A stretch of 64,000 nt of DNA, from assembly GCA_017303935.1 (NCBI GenBank), contig JAFLBD010000002.1:558001-622000 (forward strand), given 5' to 3'. The notes under the pieces were generated by a model, which was not told where the DNA came from, made no database searches, and worked only from the letters and a program-made list of their open reading frames with translations. Shown here one piece after another: positions 57,503 to 64,000 of this stretch (positions are counted from its first letter, which is position 1; the number at the start of each line of letters is the position of its first letter). The stretch is from Armatimonadota bacterium. GTDB taxonomy: Bacteria; Armatimonadota; Fimbriimonadia; Fimbriimonadales; Fimbriimonadaceae. The position numbers and the translations under genes were made by a program.

Positions 57503-57577
57503 TGGTGGTCGGTATAGGATTTGAACCTACGACCCCTTCGGTGTGAACGAAGTGCTCTACCACTGAGCTAACCGCCC
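57503..57577 (-). tRNA. tRNA-Val (anticodon CAC)
   Basis: Cloverleaf on the minus strand with D arm GCTC...GAGC, anticodon arm CTTCG/CGAAG around TTCACAC (anticodon CAC), T arm GTAGG TTCAAAT CCTAT and encoded CCA. The acceptor stem GGGCGGT/ACCGACC has one mismatch at G3-A70. The 5' end AACCGCCC (plus 57570-57577) is also repeated inverted at 57598-57605. It may be an integration site for the accessory DNA to its right. Confidence 0.88.
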
Positions 57578-58013
57578 TCTATCTAGGTTCAGCACTCGGG
57601 CGGTTTTGACTCCCGAAAATGTCGAACGAAGTGGTGTATGAAAACACCCTCTCGCCTGTTTATACCCCCTTTTCAGGATTTTCCTCGAACGAATTTGATA
57701 TAGGAAAACTGATGGCACAAACTTGCATTTTGAACCTAGAACCCCTTGATTCTCTCCCCCGTCTCTGCCATAATATCATCGTCCCGGCTGTGACCTGATG
57801 GGGGCTTCGCCCGCCATCAATATTCAGCCTGAGGTTTTCCGCCAAGAGCGAATGGATAGCGGGTTCGCACGCAAACAAGCGCGAAATTTTCAGGAGTGCG
57901 AGACAGTTACTTCTAGCGGCTGATTCCGGCAAAACAGGAGTCCACAACAAGAATATAGGCAAGACGCAGAGTGCGTTCCCTTGTTGTGATGCCACTAGGA
58001 ACTATGAATCGCA
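57578..58013. other. Leader region before the replication protein, with two inverted repeats
   Basis: 436 bases with no convincing gene. It contains the hairpin TGATGGGGGC TTCG CCCGCCATCA (57796-57819) and a nested inverted repeat ACAACAAG...CTTGTTGT (57944-57951 with 57980-57987) that encloses ACGCA...TGCGT. The latter lies just before the TTG start at 58014 and could be an operator, leader structure or origin-related site. Confidence 0.4.
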
Positions 58014-60263
58014 TTGAAAATCAAGAAATCTACTTCGCCACAACGAGGGCAACTTCTGCCCCACCATCTTGAACAACTCAAGGCTTCTGGAATCTCCGAT
58101 GAAGTCATAGCCGAAAGGGGCTATGAGTCGGTCACAAAGTCAGAAAAGCTCAAAGACCTTCAGTTCCCTTGGTATCAAGCAAAGGTTCCTGCCCTCTTGA
58201 TCCCACTCTATCCGGTGGGAAACAACCCAAATTCTGCCGACTTTGTATCACGGCCCGACAACCCGCGTCCCGGTGAAAAGGGAAAGCCGATCAAGTATGA
58301 AACCCCGGCTGATTTTGAAGTCCCGATTGACTGCCCTCCACGATGTAAACAGGACTTGCTTGACCCTGCGATACCCCTATTCGTCACGGAAGGAATTAAG
58401 AAGGCTGATTCAGCGGCTTCACGTGGTCTGTGTTGCGTCTCGCTACTCGGGGTTTGGCAGTTCCGAAATCATGACTGGGACGAAATTGAACTGCGAAGGC
58501 GAAAGGTCTACATCGCCTTTGATTCCGATTCGTTGGAGAATCCCCATGTACACGACGCGGCAAAAAAGCTTACTAACCTTCTGCGTGGATTGGGTGCTAC
58601 CGTTATTCGGCTCTACATTCCATCCGGCCCGAACGGTGAAAAAGTCGGTTTGGATGACTACTTCGCCAAGGGTGGAACACCGGAAGAACTCGTTACGTTC
58701 ACAACGAGATTAAGAAGCGGAAAGTTGAAGATTCGGGCTGATCTCCCAACCATCGAAAGCCACGAGGAACGGCTTGAAGAAATGGTTGATGCTTCGATTC
58801 AAGCTTTGGTTGATCAAAATCACCCCCCGTATTTGTTCGTCTACGGAAGCCGCCTTTCCCGACTAAAGAGGTGCGAAGTGAACGGCGTTCTCTTGCCTCA
58901 GATTGAGGACGCAACCAAGGACATTATCATTGATCGTCTCAGCCAATCGTTGAACTACGTGTCTGTAAGCTCGAATGGGCGAAGAATTGTCAACCCCCCG
59001 GATATTGTGGCCCGTATGATTACGGCACGACCTGAACTGCCTGGAATCCCAACAATCAAAGGTATTGCAACCTCTCCGTTCTTTTCGAAGCAAGGCAAGC
59101 TCATTTCTGAACCAGGATACGACCCTGAATCTGGGGTTTATCTCTTCATTCGTGACGGGCTGAAGTTACCGAAACTGGACACTTCGCCGGAAGGAGTTCA
59201 AAGAGCACGTGAGACGATAGAAGACCTGATTTGTGATTTCCCGTTTGAGGACGAATCTTCCCGTGCTCATGCAGTGGCATTCCTGATTTCTCCGTTTGTT
59301 CGGGAAATGATTATCGGGCCAACTCCGATGTTCCTCTTCAATGCGCCAAAGCCCGGATCGGGAAAAACGCTTCTTATGACGACGCTTGCAAGGGTGTTTG
59401 TCGGTGATGGAGTTGCCTTCACTTCTGCCCCTCAGTTCGAAGAAGAATGGAGGAAGCGGCTAACCTCACTGTTCAAAGAAGGCGTCACGCACGGACTTTT
59501 CGACAATCTGGCAAGGTTCGGAAGTGAAGCCCTAAACACGGCTTTAACTGCCCCAGATTGCATTTGGAAAGATCGTCTACTTGGACGCAACGAAACCCCG
59601 CATTTGCCCATTCGGTGCGTTTGGGGTGCTACGGCGAACAACTTTGAAGGCACGGAAGAAGAGCTTCGAAGGTGCCTCAATATCCGAATCAATCCGAACG
59701 AAGAAAACCCGGCTCAACGGCGGGGATTCAAGCACTCGGATTTGAAGGCATTCAGTGAGCAGAATCGGCCTCAGATTCTGGCCTCAGTCGTGACTCTGGT
59801 TCAAGCTTGGATTGATGCCGGACGGCCCGAATACTCAGAAGCAGAACCCCTCATGGGAAGCTTCGAGAATTTTTGTCGGTTGATCGGTGGAATTCTCGAA
59901 TTCGCCGGATATACGGGCTTTCTCTCGAATCGGGAAGAATTCCTTGCTCAATCTGACATTGAAACAGAGCAGAACAAATCCTTCATTCAAGCTTGGTCGG
60001 AAACCTACGGCAAAGCAATGGTTAGGGCTAGAGACTTGGAGATCATGGCCTGCAACCATTTCCCCGAGTTGGACGCACTCCCGGCGAACGTCGCAAGGGT
60101 GCAACTGGGAAGGCTGTTAGGGAAGCTCCGTGACCAAGTGATTCTAGGCAAACGGATTTGCCGGAAGCAGAGCGACGACGGATTCCGATATTGGCTTGCC
60201 GAAGCTACTAAGCCGGGGAAACGGGTAGCAACCGGGTTCATCGGTGAGGACGACAAGAACTAA
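58014..60263 (+). CDS. DUF3854-type TOPRIM / P-loop replication protein of a mobile element
   Basis: 749 residues from TTG at 58014 (AGGA upstream at a long spacing). Residues ~115-215 hold TOPRIM-like motifs: PLFVTEGIKKADSAASRGL and VYIAFDSD, then VGLDDYFAKGG, the DUF3854 pattern. From ~420 comes a P-loop ATPase, with FNAPKPGSGKTLLMTTLAR (Walker A near 447) and later GATANNFEGTEEELRRCLNI (sensor-like). Such primase-helicase-like proteins belong to integrated plasmids and integrative elements. It is the clearest mark that the region right of tRNA-Val is foreign DNA. Integrase not seen in the window. Confidence 0.75.
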   Translation: MKIKKSTSPQRGQLLPHHLEQLKASGISDEVIAERGYESVTKSEKLKDLQFPWYQAKVPALLIPLYPVGNNPNSADFVSRPDNPRPGEKGKPIKYETPADFEVPIDCPPRCKQDLLDPAIPLFVTEGIKKADSAASRGLCCVSLLGVWQFRNHDWDEIELRRRKVYIAFDSDSLENPHVHDAAKKLTNLLRGLGATVIRLYIPSGPNGEKVGLDDYFAKGGTPEELVTFTTRLRSGKLKIRADLPTIESHEERLEEMVDASIQALVDQNHPPYLFVYGSRLSRLKRCEVNGVLLPQIEDATKDIIIDRLSQSLNYVSVSSNGRRIVNPPDIVARMITARPELPGIPTIKGIATSPFFSKQGKLISEPGYDPESGVYLFIRDGLKLPKLDTSPEGVQRARETIEDLICDFPFEDESSRAHAVAFLISPFVREMIIGPTPMFLFNAPKPGSGKTLLMTTLARVFVGDGVAFTSAPQFEEEWRKRLTSLFKEGVTHGLFDNLARFGSEALNTALTAPDCIWKDRLLGRNETPHLPIRCVWGATANNFEGTEEELRRCLNIRINPNEENPAQRRGFKHSDLKAFSEQNRPQILASVVTLVQAWIDAGRPEYSEAEPLMGSFENFCRLIGGILEFAGYTGFLSNREEFLAQSDIETEQNKSFIQAWSETYGKAMVRARDLEIMACNHFPELDALPANVARVQLGRLLGKLRDQVILGKRICRKQSDDGFRYWLAEATKPGKRVATGFIGEDDKN

Positions 60264-60420
60264 AGGTGCTCCAAAGTGAAGCTCCTGAAGGTTGCTCGGA
60301 GTCCCCCGGTTCCAGCCCGTCCCAACCTGAAAAACGTCAACTGTCGGCCCTAGGGGGTCGGCACGTTAGACGGTCGGAACTGGCCTAACCTAACAACTAC
60401 AAGAAATGGAGTGTTTTGAA

Positions 60421-60717
60421 ATGAATGAATACGCGAATGAATTAGCACTTGAAGAATTAAGTGACCGTTCGATCTATACAAAGATGCGAATGCGAAACAG
60501 AGCCTTGAAGCTCACTAGAGAAGTGGAGTGGTTCAAGTATTGCGAAAAGGCACGATCTAGAATCGAAAAGCACGGAATTCAACCCGTCGTTGTTGATGAA
60601 CGAAAGTGGTCGGGGTACCTAATGAACTCGGAAGGCAAGATCGTTAGCGAGAAAAGGGTGGTCACGGAACAAATCGCGATGATGATTGAAAATGGAGAGT
60701 TCGGGGACATTTGGTGA
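60421..60717 (+). CDS. Small charged hypothetical protein
   Basis: 98 residues from ATG at 60421 (an earlier in-frame ATG at 60406 adds five residues). Highly charged, helical (MRMRNRALKLTREVEWFKYC), no recognised domain. It follows the replication protein after ~155 bases. Its 3' part overlaps the opposing ORF 60579-61328 by 139 bases. I favour this one as real because its composition fits a small soluble protein, but it stays unverified. Confidence 0.4.
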   Translation: MNEYANELALEELSDRSIYTKMRMRNRALKLTREVEWFKYCEKARSRIEKHGIQPVVVDERKWSGYLMNSEGKIVSEKRVVTEQIAMMIENGEFGDIW

Positions 60718-61328
60718 CTGGGGGGTAGAGGGGTTTTCGAGCCCCTCCATTCCCCCCCACCCCGTCCCGCGCAATTTTTTTGATTTTTCTTAGTTCGGCG
60801 ACTTACATACTTGCTGACCCCTGACCGTAACGATTCAAAAAGCTTGGTTGCCTCTCTCGCCTGGGCTGTTTTTGGGAAGAAAAGGTAAAGCTCCTTTTCG
60901 GCCTTTTCAGACTTGGTTTCCGTGCCGTTCAGTGTGTCCAGTTTAGCAACCTTCGTTTGAATCTCCTTTTTGAACTGAATGCGCGTCGCCTTTTTATCTA
61001 GCTGGATTGACTTGACATTAGACCATTCCACTTCGAAAGTCTGCCTTTCCACCGAGACTGGTACCAAGCCCTCTCGCCGATCCGTTGCGCTGATTCTAAC
61101 AATCTGTACGATCGTGAACTTTGCCTTGCTTGCTTCTGGCAGTTGATACGTGATGCGAAGTCGCTTGTCTTCGAGTTCATATTTTGCGTCGTCCTGAACC
61201 GTATCCTGAAGCGTCTCGAAAGTGGACTTCAGCTTCCCAGAGAGTTGAGCCAAAGAAATCGAAGTGACCAGGACGAATGATCCCAAGAGCAAAATTCGGA
61301 GAAAACGCCTCTCTGAAAGTGAACCCAT
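60579..61328 (-). CDS. Exported hypothetical protein (3' end doubtful)
   Basis: 249 residues with a signal sequence (FLRILLLGSFVLVTSISLAQ). Residues ~25-185 look like a real soluble domain (FETLQDTVQDDAKYELEDKR, RQTFEVEWSNVKSIQLDKKA). The remaining ~60 residues (from NCAGRGGGEWRGSKTPLPPS) lie across the hairpin 60720-60757 and opposite the plus-strand gene, and look non-natural. The true stop may have been lost by an indel, or the tail is real. It is divergent from the XRE gene, and the operator palindromes overlap its start. Function unknown. Confidence 0.5.
   Translation of the reverse strand: MGSLSERRFLRILLLGSFVLVTSISLAQLSGKLKSTFETLQDTVQDDAKYELEDKRLRITYQLPEASKAKFTIVQIVRISATDRREGLVPVSVERQTFEVEWSNVKSIQLDKKATRIQFKKEIQTKVAKLDTLNGTETKSEKAEKELYLFFPKTAQAREATKLFESLRSGVSKYVSRRTKKNQKNCAGRGGGEWRGSKTPLPPSHQMSPNSPFSIIIAICSVTTLFSLTILPSEFIRYPDHFRSSTTTG
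60720..60757. terminator. Terminator-like hairpin after the small hypothetical gene
   Basis: GAGGGG (60728-60733) with CCCCTC (60742-60747), extended by outer runs of G and C (60720-60725 with 60752-60757). A T-run follows on the plus strand only after 17 bases, so it may instead simply be a strong hairpin between converging genes. Confidence 0.4.
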
Positions 61329-61369
61329 ATTGGGTTCAGATTACCTTACTGAACCTCAATAAGGTTTCA
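61320..61369. promoter_or_regulatory. Two tandem palindromes: candidate controller operators (C-box-like)
   Basis: Site 1: TGAACCC (61320-61326), 5-base spacer, GGGTTCA (61332-61338). Site 2: TGAACC (61350-61355), then AGGTTTCA (61362-61369), imperfect. The inner half-sites also form GGTTCAG/CTGAACC (61333-61355). Four related half-sites between two divergent genes, directly before an XRE regulator, is the standard layout of restriction-modification controller binding sites. Confidence 0.6.
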
Positions 61370-61391
61370 TTCCAATGTCAGCTTCTGGATA

Positions 61392-61676
61392 TTGCCAGCA
61401 CGACACAAGATCATCCCCGACATTGAGCACGTCCGATTCGGCGCGTATATGCGTTCCGTTCGGGAGTCGGTCGGGGTGTCTCAAAGGGAGCTTGCCAAGC
61501 TCCTGAACCTGCCCCAAAGCTACGTCTCCAAAATCGAACGCGGGGAACGTCAGCTTCAGGCCCTGGAATTGATCGAAATTTGCCGATTACTGAAGGTTCT
61601 GCCGAGTGAAGTGCTCAGGAGCTATCTGTTGACGCCAGGGGAGCAGACCTACGAAACCAATGAGCGTGTAGAATGA
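61392..61676 (+). CDS. XRE-family HTH regulator, controller-like
   Basis: 94 residues from TTG at 61392. Single Cro/CI-type helix-turn-helix (FGAYMRSVRESVGVSQRELA... LPQSYVSKIERGERQLQALE, residues ~16-72). No other domain. The gene begins the methyltransferase operon, with just 4 bases between its stop and the next ATG. Size and position match a C protein that sets timing of modification and restriction. Start uncertain: ATG 61449 would cut off helix 1; no strong Shine-Dalgarno is seen. Confidence 0.8.
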   Translation: MPARHKIIPDIEHVRFGAYMRSVRESVGVSQRELAKLLNLPQSYVSKIERGERQLQALELIEICRLLKVLPSEVLRSYLLTPGEQTYETNERVE

Positions 61677-61680
61677 AGCA

Positions 61681-62733
61681 ATGCCAGAGTGGGTTGGAAT
61701 CGACCTTTTCGCCGGTGCTGGGGGGATGTCCCTTGGTGCAAGGTCAGCAGGCATTCAGCTGCTGACCGCCGTCGAAGCGTGCCCTCACGCCTCCCGCACA
61801 TACTCCCTGAACTTTCCTGGCACAAAGGTTGTTTGCACCGATGTAAGACACTTTGACGATTGGATGCCGAACACCGGAACAGATTCCAAGCTGATCCTCT
61901 TCGGTGGCCCACCCTGCCAAGGATTCTCCACTTCCAATCAACGCACTCGCAATTCAGATAACGAGCGCAATCATTTAGTGTTTACATTTGTGGAAGCAGT
62001 AAGCAAACTCCAACCAGATGTTTTCGTGATGGAGAACGTGAAGGGAATCCTAGAAACAGAAGGAGCCCACTTCTTACAAAGTGCAGTTGATGCCTTTAAA
62101 AAACTCGACTATCAGGTTTCGGTTCACTTGTTGAACGCCGTGGATTTTGGAGTGCCCCAACGCAGATCACGGGTTTTTGTCGTCGGTTCAAGAAAGCGAA
62201 TTAAGCTCCAAATACCTCCTCAAGAGCAAAGCTTGACTGTATGGGATGCAATCCACGATTTACCATGCCTTACCAATGGAGCGAATGTTGATGAACTTCC
62301 ATATTCGTGTAATTGCGAAAGTCACTATGCATTAGTTATGCGAGGCAACTTGCAAACTGTATCTGGAAATCTTGTGACCAGGAATAGCGATACTGTCGTT
62401 AACAGATATCGACACATTTTGCCAGGACAAAACTGGGAATCCATTCCAGTCCATTTGATGAACAATTATGGAGATCGCACCAAATGTCACACTGGTATTT
62501 ACAAACGACTTGAAAAGTGCCAGCCATCAGTCGTGATTGGAAATTATCGAAAGAACATGTTAATCCATCCTGTGCAAGATCGTGGCCTATCGGTTCGCGA
62601 GGCCGCTAGACTTCAATCTGTTCCTGATAGCTTTCTATTCAGTGGCACAATTGGATTCCAGCAACAACAGGTAGGAAATATGGTTCCACCCTTGCTAGCA
62701 AAATCCGTCTTCGAAGAGGTCATCAAAGGATGA
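61681..62733 (+). CDS. DNA (cytosine-5-)-methyltransferase
   Basis: 350 residues. All core motifs: I IDLFAGAGGMSLGA (7-20), IV GGPPCQGFS with catalytic C79, VI ENV (118-120), VIII QRRSR (160-164), and X QVGNMVPPLLA near the C-terminus. A variable target-recognition region lies between ~175 and ~310. It methylates C5 of a cytosine in an unknown site. It overlaps the next gene by ATGA. The DNA here is more AT-rich than the rest of the window, in keeping with horizontal transfer. Confidence 0.95.
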   Translation: MPEWVGIDLFAGAGGMSLGARSAGIQLLTAVEACPHASRTYSLNFPGTKVVCTDVRHFDDWMPNTGTDSKLILFGGPPCQGFSTSNQRTRNSDNERNHLVFTFVEAVSKLQPDVFVMENVKGILETEGAHFLQSAVDAFKKLDYQVSVHLLNAVDFGVPQRRSRVFVVGSRKRIKLQIPPQEQSLTVWDAIHDLPCLTNGANVDELPYSCNCESHYALVMRGNLQTVSGNLVTRNSDTVVNRYRHILPGQNWESIPVHLMNNYGDRTKCHTGIYKRLEKCQPSVVIGNYRKNMLIHPVQDRGLSVREAARLQSVPDSFLFSGTIGFQQQQVGNMVPPLLAKSVFEEVIKG

Positions 62734-63899
62734 ACAAAGCCACCACTGGACACTTGGTAAAAATTCTGGAAAATGCGTCTGCTGATCCCAAGCATGCGGA
62801 CTTCGCAGAGGCAAAGAAATACCTGGATGCCTTTCGCCACATGGAAGGGAAATTCTTCGACGGAATCCATTCAGATACGGACACCGGTTTGGCTATGGCC
62901 GAAACGGCTGCGAACGAAGGTGGCTCTCCAAACATCTTCACTCGACATAACGGTAATCATATTGTCGATCTAAGTAAGAACCTCGACAAACTCGCAGAAT
63001 CAATCGAAAGGCGCAAAAACGGAACTGCTCTTAGTGTTCTTGAGGCCTATATTCTACTTTGCTCTGCTCACGTTCACGATGCCGCCAACGTTAGCGGCCG
63101 CAAGGATCATCCGCAACGGGTTGGAGACTTCATGGCGTATCCGTTACGCAAACCCCTCTTTACGGGCACGGTGGAAATGGAACATATCCGCGACGTAGCC
63201 TCCGCACATGGGGGAGAGCATGAGGAGTTTGGAAAAGATACATTCCGAGCCATTGAAGCAAACAACTATACGCATCCGCGACTCCACTTGCTTGCCGCAC
63301 TACTTCGTATCGCAGATGAACTGGCAGAAAATCCAGGCCGTGTACCGGAGTACCTGCTTGAACATTACCAGGCTTCAGAGCATAGTCAGTTGGCCCATGC
63401 GTATGCCAGATCCTTTGCAAACTTTGAACTGAGAGATGAATGCCTGAAACTCGTTTACAGGTGCTACCCGGGAATTTGCGACGGTGAGAACGAATCCGTA
63501 TCTTCATTTATTCAGTTTCTTGAAAAGAAGCTGAACGCCATTGAAAGCGAGGCACGTTATTGCTCGCAGTATGGGAGACCCTATCTCAGCATTTCTGAAA
63601 TAGACGTTGCAATTCAGCCGTGGTCACAAGCACCGCCAGGAGGTCAAAAATTGCCTCTCCGACAGTTCAAGCTTAATCTCCTGAACGGATATCCAGAAAA
63701 CAAGAACAGTCTATGCGAGAGGTCCGTTGAACTCAAAGAAGCAGGGTTTAAATGTCTAGATGATGCTTTTGTAGGTCTGTACAATACTTCATCTTCTATC
63801 CGCAAGAGTGGCAAAGCGACAGGTACCGAGCAAAGCACGGAGCCATCACGCTTAGCAAAGTTTTTGAATAAATTATTTTTTTTGGGAGGAAATAGTTGA
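62730..63899 (+). CDS. HD-domain protein of the methyltransferase operon
   Basis: 389 residues. HD-type metal site: H114-V-H116-D117 (CSAHVHDAAN), H160/H164 (VASAHGGEHEEFG) and D196 in LLRIADELAE. The LR-ADEL pattern is close to the HD group that I recall being paired with HSP90-like ATPases and in defence loci. The C-terminal ~150 residues are unassigned. It may act as a nucleotide or nucleic-acid phosphohydrolase effector. Coupled to the methyltransferase (ATGA) and to the next ORF (TTGA). No restriction endonuclease motif is seen. Confidence 0.7.
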   Translation: MNKATTGHLVKILENASADPKHADFAEAKKYLDAFRHMEGKFFDGIHSDTDTGLAMAETAANEGGSPNIFTRHNGNHIVDLSKNLDKLAESIERRKNGTALSVLEAYILLCSAHVHDAANVSGRKDHPQRVGDFMAYPLRKPLFTGTVEMEHIRDVASAHGGEHEEFGKDTFRAIEANNYTHPRLHLLAALLRIADELAENPGRVPEYLLEHYQASEHSQLAHAYARSFANFELRDECLKLVYRCYPGICDGENESVSSFIQFLEKKLNAIESEARYCSQYGRPYLSISEIDVAIQPWSQAPPGGQKLPLRQFKLNLLNGYPENKNSLCERSVELKEAGFKCLDDAFVGLYNTSSSIRKSGKATGTEQSTEPSRLAKFLNKLFFLGGNS

Positions 63900-64000
63900 G
63901 CCAGCACGCTGAGCACAACCCCTTCGAGCTTGTTACCGCTTCTAAACTGAGTGCGCAAGAAGCAGTCAGCCTATGGTGCGACGACAAACGTCTTGACAGA
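63896..64000 (+). CDS. Start of next ORF in the methyltransferase operon (3' end outside window)
   Basis: 35 codons from TTG at 63896, which shares TTGA with the previous stop. The visible residues begin SQHAEHNPFELVTASKLSAQ and end SLWCDDKRLDR. An NPF...A..LS..EA...W..D opening reminds me of the N-terminus of some P-loop (ORC/CDC6-like) ATPases, but no ATPase motif is in the window, so this is weak. Confidence 0.5.
   Translation, partial: MSQHAEHNPFELVTASKLSAQEAVSLWCDDKRLDR

Follow-up and report, generated by a model that had tools for sequence, protein, structure and literature searches.

The leader between a predicted exported-protein gene and the adjacent XRE regulator gene, in the 64,000-nt stretch of DNA analyzed here (the window), carries a pair of inverted repeats, which we call site A and site B. 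We consider it probable that both are binding sites of the XRE regulator, through which it would repress the exported gene, regulate its own expression and, in this genome, also control the Dcm methyltransferase operon. This is the best explanation we have for the sites themselves, their conservation, the association of the dyad with a regulator family and the swapping of modules around it; from these observations, we infer binding, the sign of the regulation, the positions of the promoters and cooperativity.

Both candidate operators were read directly from the sequence: site A (TGAACCC-ATATT-GGGTTCA, 61320..61338; core AACCC-N5-GGGTT at 61322-61336) and site B (TGAACCT-CAATA-AGGTTTCA, 61350..61369; core AACCT-CAATA-AGGTT at 61352-61366). 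They share the core AACC-N7-GGTT, or more exactly the 15-bp dyad AACCY-N5-RGGTT, and their centres, at 61329 and 61359, are 30 bp apart, with 15 bp between the dyads. This reading agrees with a preliminary description of the region, which had placed two palindromes between divergent genes, 30 bases apart centre to centre. The flanking A/T pair matches in site A too, giving a perfect 8-bp arm around a 3-nt loop. Taken singly, site A is only moderately unusual, because about a dozen distinct dyads with perfect 8-bp arms and loops of 3-7 nt occur in the 64-kb window. The pair exceeds chance expectation: a genome-wide search for the two-dyad array returned one match with 0 mismatches in the 2.56-Mb genome, the runner-up having 3 mismatches. 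The absence of a second copy in this genome argues against a genome-wide regulon, and no further 10/10 sites were found in the rest of the island that carries the array. Two 9/10 matches, at 60279 and 63917, fall within genes or at their ends, and we regarded them as chance occurrences.

A search among 291 genomes of the phylum (Armatimonadota) yielded five close XRE genes, including the window's own (genome G000); identity to the window protein is 85% in G138 and G092, and 57% in G085 and G106. The preliminary description had proposed looking for the palindromes in the leaders of relatives, and they are present there: the core of site B matches at 10/10 positions in all five leaders, and site A is clearly kept in four of them, being perfect in G000, matching at 9/10 in G092 and G085, and having a spacer of 4 bp, not 5, in G138. 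In this comparison of the five leaders, site A is gone from that of G106. Since three orthologues have only an imperfect copy of site A and a fourth has none, site A is, by this comparison, not essential to the module, and the conserved site is B, rather than the perfect palindrome A. The letters invariant across the five copies of site B are GAACCT.A...AGGTTTCA; 15 of its 19 columns are invariant, versus 9 of 53 in the remaining leader (Fisher p 2e-6, which is only indicative, as three of the five leader sequences are closely related). The strict pattern GAACCY-N5-AGGTTTCA occurs in one copy in each of the five orthologue-bearing genomes, each time in the XRE leader. Seven extra matches were found among the 291 genomes, none with an XRE orthologue nearby, which is about the level of a reversed-pattern control (about 19 matches).

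Scanning genome contigs turned up 28 relatives of the XRE gene, from Verrucomicrobiota, Chloroflexota, Actinomycetota, Planctomycetota, Acidobacteriota, Cyanobacteriota, Pseudomonadota, Thermodesulfobacteriota and Armatimonadota (about nine phyla). The AACC-N7-GGTT core, chosen beforehand, matches at 7/8 in the leaders of 13 of 25 distant relatives, and these leaders tolerate A or T at position 2 of the half-site, which gives AWCCY-N5-RGGWT. Counting as a match at least 9/10 in the 160 bp that precede the XRE gene, we found this pattern in 26 of 30 homologue leaders; among other ORFs at the same loci, 4 of 131 leaders have it, and so do 4 of 30 reversed leaders. The W at position 2 was fitted after viewing the data and the homologues are non-independent, some loci being near-duplicates; even so, this fitting and these near-duplicates fall far short of explaining the contrast. 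The window's two sites each match at 10/10, and most homologue leaders outside its clade have ATCC half-sites. We also observed that at residue 50 of the XRE proteins (window numbering; L013-L062 proteins), ERGER past the recognition helix tends to go with AACC half-sites and E[ST]GER with ATCC; residue 50 is a possible specificity residue. Viral contigs contained 12 weak XRE homologues, and the AACC-N7-GGTT core was not found upstream of the best five of these 12. Taken together with the confinement of the strict pattern to XRE leaders in the five genomes, the way in which the dyad tracks the XRE family over about nine phyla, amid differing neighbour genes, makes it very unlikely that the dyads are bound by a different island or host regulator while the XRE protein acts elsewhere.

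The regulator is a small single-domain protein of 94 aa with an XRE domain of the HTH_3 type, encoded on the plus strand (61392..61676) from a TTG start at 61392; the start codon is TTG or GTG at the same place in all five orthologues. The Control_protein model of PADLOC matches it with an E value of 3e-10, and a profile search against solved structures placed C.BclI (2e-13) and C.AhdI (6e-11) among its closest matches; C.Esp1396I, too, is among the nearest solved structures when sequence and fold are considered together. An AlphaFold2 model (pLDDT 82) submitted to Foldseek returned C.BclI and C.AhdI at ranks 1-4. The profile, PADLOC and fold matches support the suggestion in the preliminary description that the regulator is C-like: it is C-protein-like by sequence as well as by predicted fold, and the C-like reading is borne out for the protein and for its operator.

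Several of the dyad-bearing homologues are C genes inside real restriction-modification (R-M) loci. In L039 and L054, the XRE gene neighbours genes for a D12-class methyltransferase (MethyltransfD12) and a DUF7687/DUF7690 protein, and in L051 its neighbours are genes for a BsuBI/PstI endonuclease and for an Eco57I-type methyltransferase. These R-M-locus relatives have single dyads or pairs 15 bp apart; the spacing is 16 bp in L020, L022 and L044, 28 bp in L023/L028, and 29-30 bp in the window's clade. One dyad thus comes in a natural spacing series (15, 16, 28, 30 bp), which should be useful for studying how dimer-dimer contact sets such a switch. More generally, a specific operator sequence can now be linked to a C-protein-like regulator family over about nine phyla, and this family extends beyond R-M systems.

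Divergent from the regulator gene, the ORF call gives a protein of 249 aa with an N-terminal signal-peptide-like segment (60579..61328, minus strand). Its minus-strand ATG, at 61326-61328, is the middle of site A, so that the first palindrome does cover the start codon of the divergent gene, as had been noted before. In every case compared, the product of the leftward slot begins like a signal-peptide-bearing protein or a lipoprotein. The leftward proteins of G000 and G092 share 24% identity (E 7e-5), a likeness that stops at about residue 173 of the 249-aa ORF, and show no similarity to that of G138; those of L026, L028 and L029 form a separate related lipoprotein family. Homology of all the divergent exported proteins was considered and rejected, as only the G000/G092 pair and the L026/L028/L029 group are related. 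The island lipoproteins divergent from XRE genes (L026 7870-8811, L028 10439-11389, L029 15698-16723) have weak ThuA/DUF7408 similarity.

A sigma-70 scan of the leader found no promoter; comparison of leaders supplied a −10-like hexamer instead. The candidate leftward −10 element, TAATCT (61338..61343, minus strand), lies between the dyads, 9 nt before the ATG, and each of the five orthologues has a minus-strand TANNNT hexamer in the inter-dyad stretch, at almost the same position (TAATCT, TAAACT, TAAAAT, TAAAAT, TACAAT). In G000, G138 and G092, the distance from the end of the hexamer to the ATG in site A is 8-9 nt; therefore, the exported gene would be nearly leaderless, with site A on its start. 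This may be common in the lineage: across the window and its relatives, TANNNT peaks 6-7 nt ahead of start codons (11 of 264 at 6 nt, versus about 2-3 elsewhere), which suggests that leaderless mRNAs are frequent. The more distant L023/L028 have a perfect TATAAT between their two dyads, and in G142 (L021/L029) the one related dyad, TGTACCC-N5-GGGTACA, covers a leftward TTGACA-N17-TAGGGT-like promoter. A −35 consensus was found neither for the leftward promoter nor for the XRE promoter. The earlier proposal that the exported gene belongs to the same regulon is probably right, given the conserved −10-like hexamer between the dyads and the inter-island DNA identity that starts at site A.

With the ATG inside and eight perfect pairs, site A could also be read as an RNA hairpin, the palindromes serving as an attenuator or sequestering a start codon. 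We regard this as improbable in the extreme, as the AWCC letters are fixed across phyla with only positions 2 and 5 varying, unlike a free RNA stem, and as the predicted start near 61331 would give a leftward RNA with only half of site A. In the operator reading that we prefer, one XRE dimer would occupy each 15-bp AACCY-N5-RGGTT dyad. The dimer at A would cover the leftward start and the ATG, and the dimer at B the leftward −35 region; as A and B flank the leftward −10 element, their occupancy would shut off the exported gene. Judging by position, XRE on site B, directly upstream of its own gene, would provide autoregulation, and site B is the best-conserved site, as an autoregulatory site should be. 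With the dyads 30 bp apart, classical side-by-side contact between dimers should be impossible, and DNA looping may apply, as for C.Csp231I. Judged by position alone, site A may possibly act as an activator site for XRE: with an assumed XRE start near 61373, it would lie at about −44. G106, however, lacks site A.

The whole arrangement is part of an 11.8-kb island (window 57503-64000 and L011 3503-15305) bounded by tRNA-Val(CAC) repeats of 75-76 bp (97%); the corresponding repeat in G092 is 72 bp at 100%. By repeat comparison, the left end is the tRNA-Val(CAC) at 57503..57577 (minus strand), and the right end is a 97% copy at 69231-69305 (window numbering) that adjoins a tyrosine integrase. 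At the end opposite the integrase lies an island replication gene of the DUF3854/Toprim primase-like type, identified by domain match (58014..60263, plus strand); its counterparts in the islands of G092 and G138, which differ in cargo, are 84-95% identical. In the window, the C5-cytosine DNA methyltransferase (Dcm) gene (61681..62733, plus strand) starts 4 bp after XRE and overlaps by 4 bp the gene of an HD-CE domain protein (62730..63899, plus strand); next come an ORC-CDC6-like ATPase gene (591 aa; plus strand, from 63896..64000 in the window to 65671 in window numbering, as read from L011) and a 324-aa ORF without a recognised family. This operon (window 61681-64000 and L011 7681-12645) is a candidate defence system; its HD-CE protein has no PADLOC match, and HD-CE is rare, occurring in 2 of the 291 genomes of the phylum. 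In G092, the cargo comprises a DUF2130 gene and an N6/N4 methyltransferase followed by a 1137-aa ORF, which is probably a type III R-M system. G138 has other cargo genes, with the operator-XRE block inverted relative to the primase gene; therefore, XRE cannot be a co-transcribed controller of the cargo there. A G-rich terminator-like stretch common to G000 and G138 (window 60716-60780 and L024 14777-14840), which marks one edge of the inverted block, is entered by the exported ORF in G000 and by the XRE ORF in G138. In G085, L028 and L029, the module belongs to a different type of element, one that has serine recombinase-like genes and T4SS-coupling-like genes.

The islands share DNA identity from the left edge of site A (L011 7320 or 7317) into XRE; as the exported ORFs differ, the operator and start codon are the constant part and the exported gene the exchanged part. 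Within the limits of sequence comparison, the operator-XRE block is shown to be a transferable module carried by tRNA-Val islands, around which exported genes and defence cargo are swapped. This points to exported proteins as components of such defence-carrying islands that are both regulated and exchangeable. The break in homology at the left edge of A, together with the inversion of the G138 module with respect to its primase gene, would also suit palindromes that serve mainly as a recombination joint for exported-gene swapping and module inversion. That function is highly improbable: distant homologues in unrelated R-M loci have the same dyad ahead of the regulator gene and show no sign of swapping, and the end of homology may merely reflect the end of selection on the operator.

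A further alternative is a true C-protein switch, in which XRE controls a Dcm-based restriction-like system, site A first activating XRE-Dcm and site B later repressing it. The C-like fold and paired dyads, the placement of XRE 4 bp upstream of a C5 methyltransferase, the relatives that are C genes in R-M loci, and the precedent for extended spacing in C.Csp231I and C.EcoO109I (PMC4321490) all speak for it. We nevertheless consider it unlikely, since no restriction enzyme domain was recognised in the XRE-Dcm operon, the array is kept in orthologues without Dcm, XRE in G138 is directed away from the cargo, and the would-be activator site A is the less conserved one. XRE lies 4 bp from a methyltransferase in G000 only, and among the genes read in G138, G085 and G106, no R-M gene adjoining XRE was recognised. 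The reading of the array as an R-M switch is therefore not supported: the array is a C-protein-like operator, and its regulator is C-protein kin, but it is not classed as an R-M controller, because the search revealed no restriction enzyme and the link to R-M genes is lost elsewhere, orthologous modules being without recognised R-M neighbours or reversed with respect to the cargo. Under the preferred reading, the Dcm/HD-CE/ORC-CDC6-like operon would be carried under the same control in G000 only. More tentatively, tRNA-Val islands might have adopted an R-M controller lineage as a plug-in switch, with an operator half-site doubling as a start codon (ATGGG), interchangeable exported proteins, perhaps of barrier or surface function, and independently changed defence cargo; the spacing of 30 bp, double the ancestral 15, would then be the signature of this new use. 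We hold this to be conceivable, although well short of probable.

Among known systems, C.AhdI, C.BclI and C.Esp1396I share with the window a small HTH_3/XRE fold and a pair of dyads ahead of the regulator gene, in many cases located between divergent genes. Classical C-boxes differ in having GACT/AGTC half-sites and about 4 bp between sites, so that the dyads nearly abut (PMC4321490), whereas the window has AACCY half-sites in dyads 30 bp apart, no classical GACT C-box in its leader, and an exported gene as the partner, with no restriction enzyme found. Its geometry is closer to that of C.Csp231I and C.EcoO109I (Sorokin motif 8), which have 5-bp half-sites separated by N5 in 15-bp dyads, as in the window, and an extended gap: 18 bp between the 15-bp sites of C.Csp231I, which is thought to loop DNA, and 25 bp for C.EcoO109I (PMC4321490). 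The half-sites of this class are CTAAG-N5-CTTAG rather than AACCY, and C.Csp231I is absent from the matches to the XRE sequence at E 0.001, so that the likeness looks like one of similar geometry and not of close kinship. As for the C-protein spacing logic in the preliminary description, the 30-bp spacing is not the classical layout and resembles the extended one of C.Csp231I. With phage and island immunity repressors that have divergent operators (lambda CI, SaPI Stl), a group in which weak sequence matches were found, the window shares an island-borne XRE repressor, as proposed here, between divergent genes; unlike them, it is not an evident master switch of its island, as an operator match is absent from the integrase and primase leaders. 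The same regulator family and the same dyad as in the window are found in the AWCCY-N5-RGGWT leaders of Verrucomicrobiota, Chloroflexota, Actinomycetota and others, where pairs 15-16 bp apart or single dyads stand beside methyltransferase or restriction enzyme partners, in contrast to the 30-bp pair and exported partner of the window.
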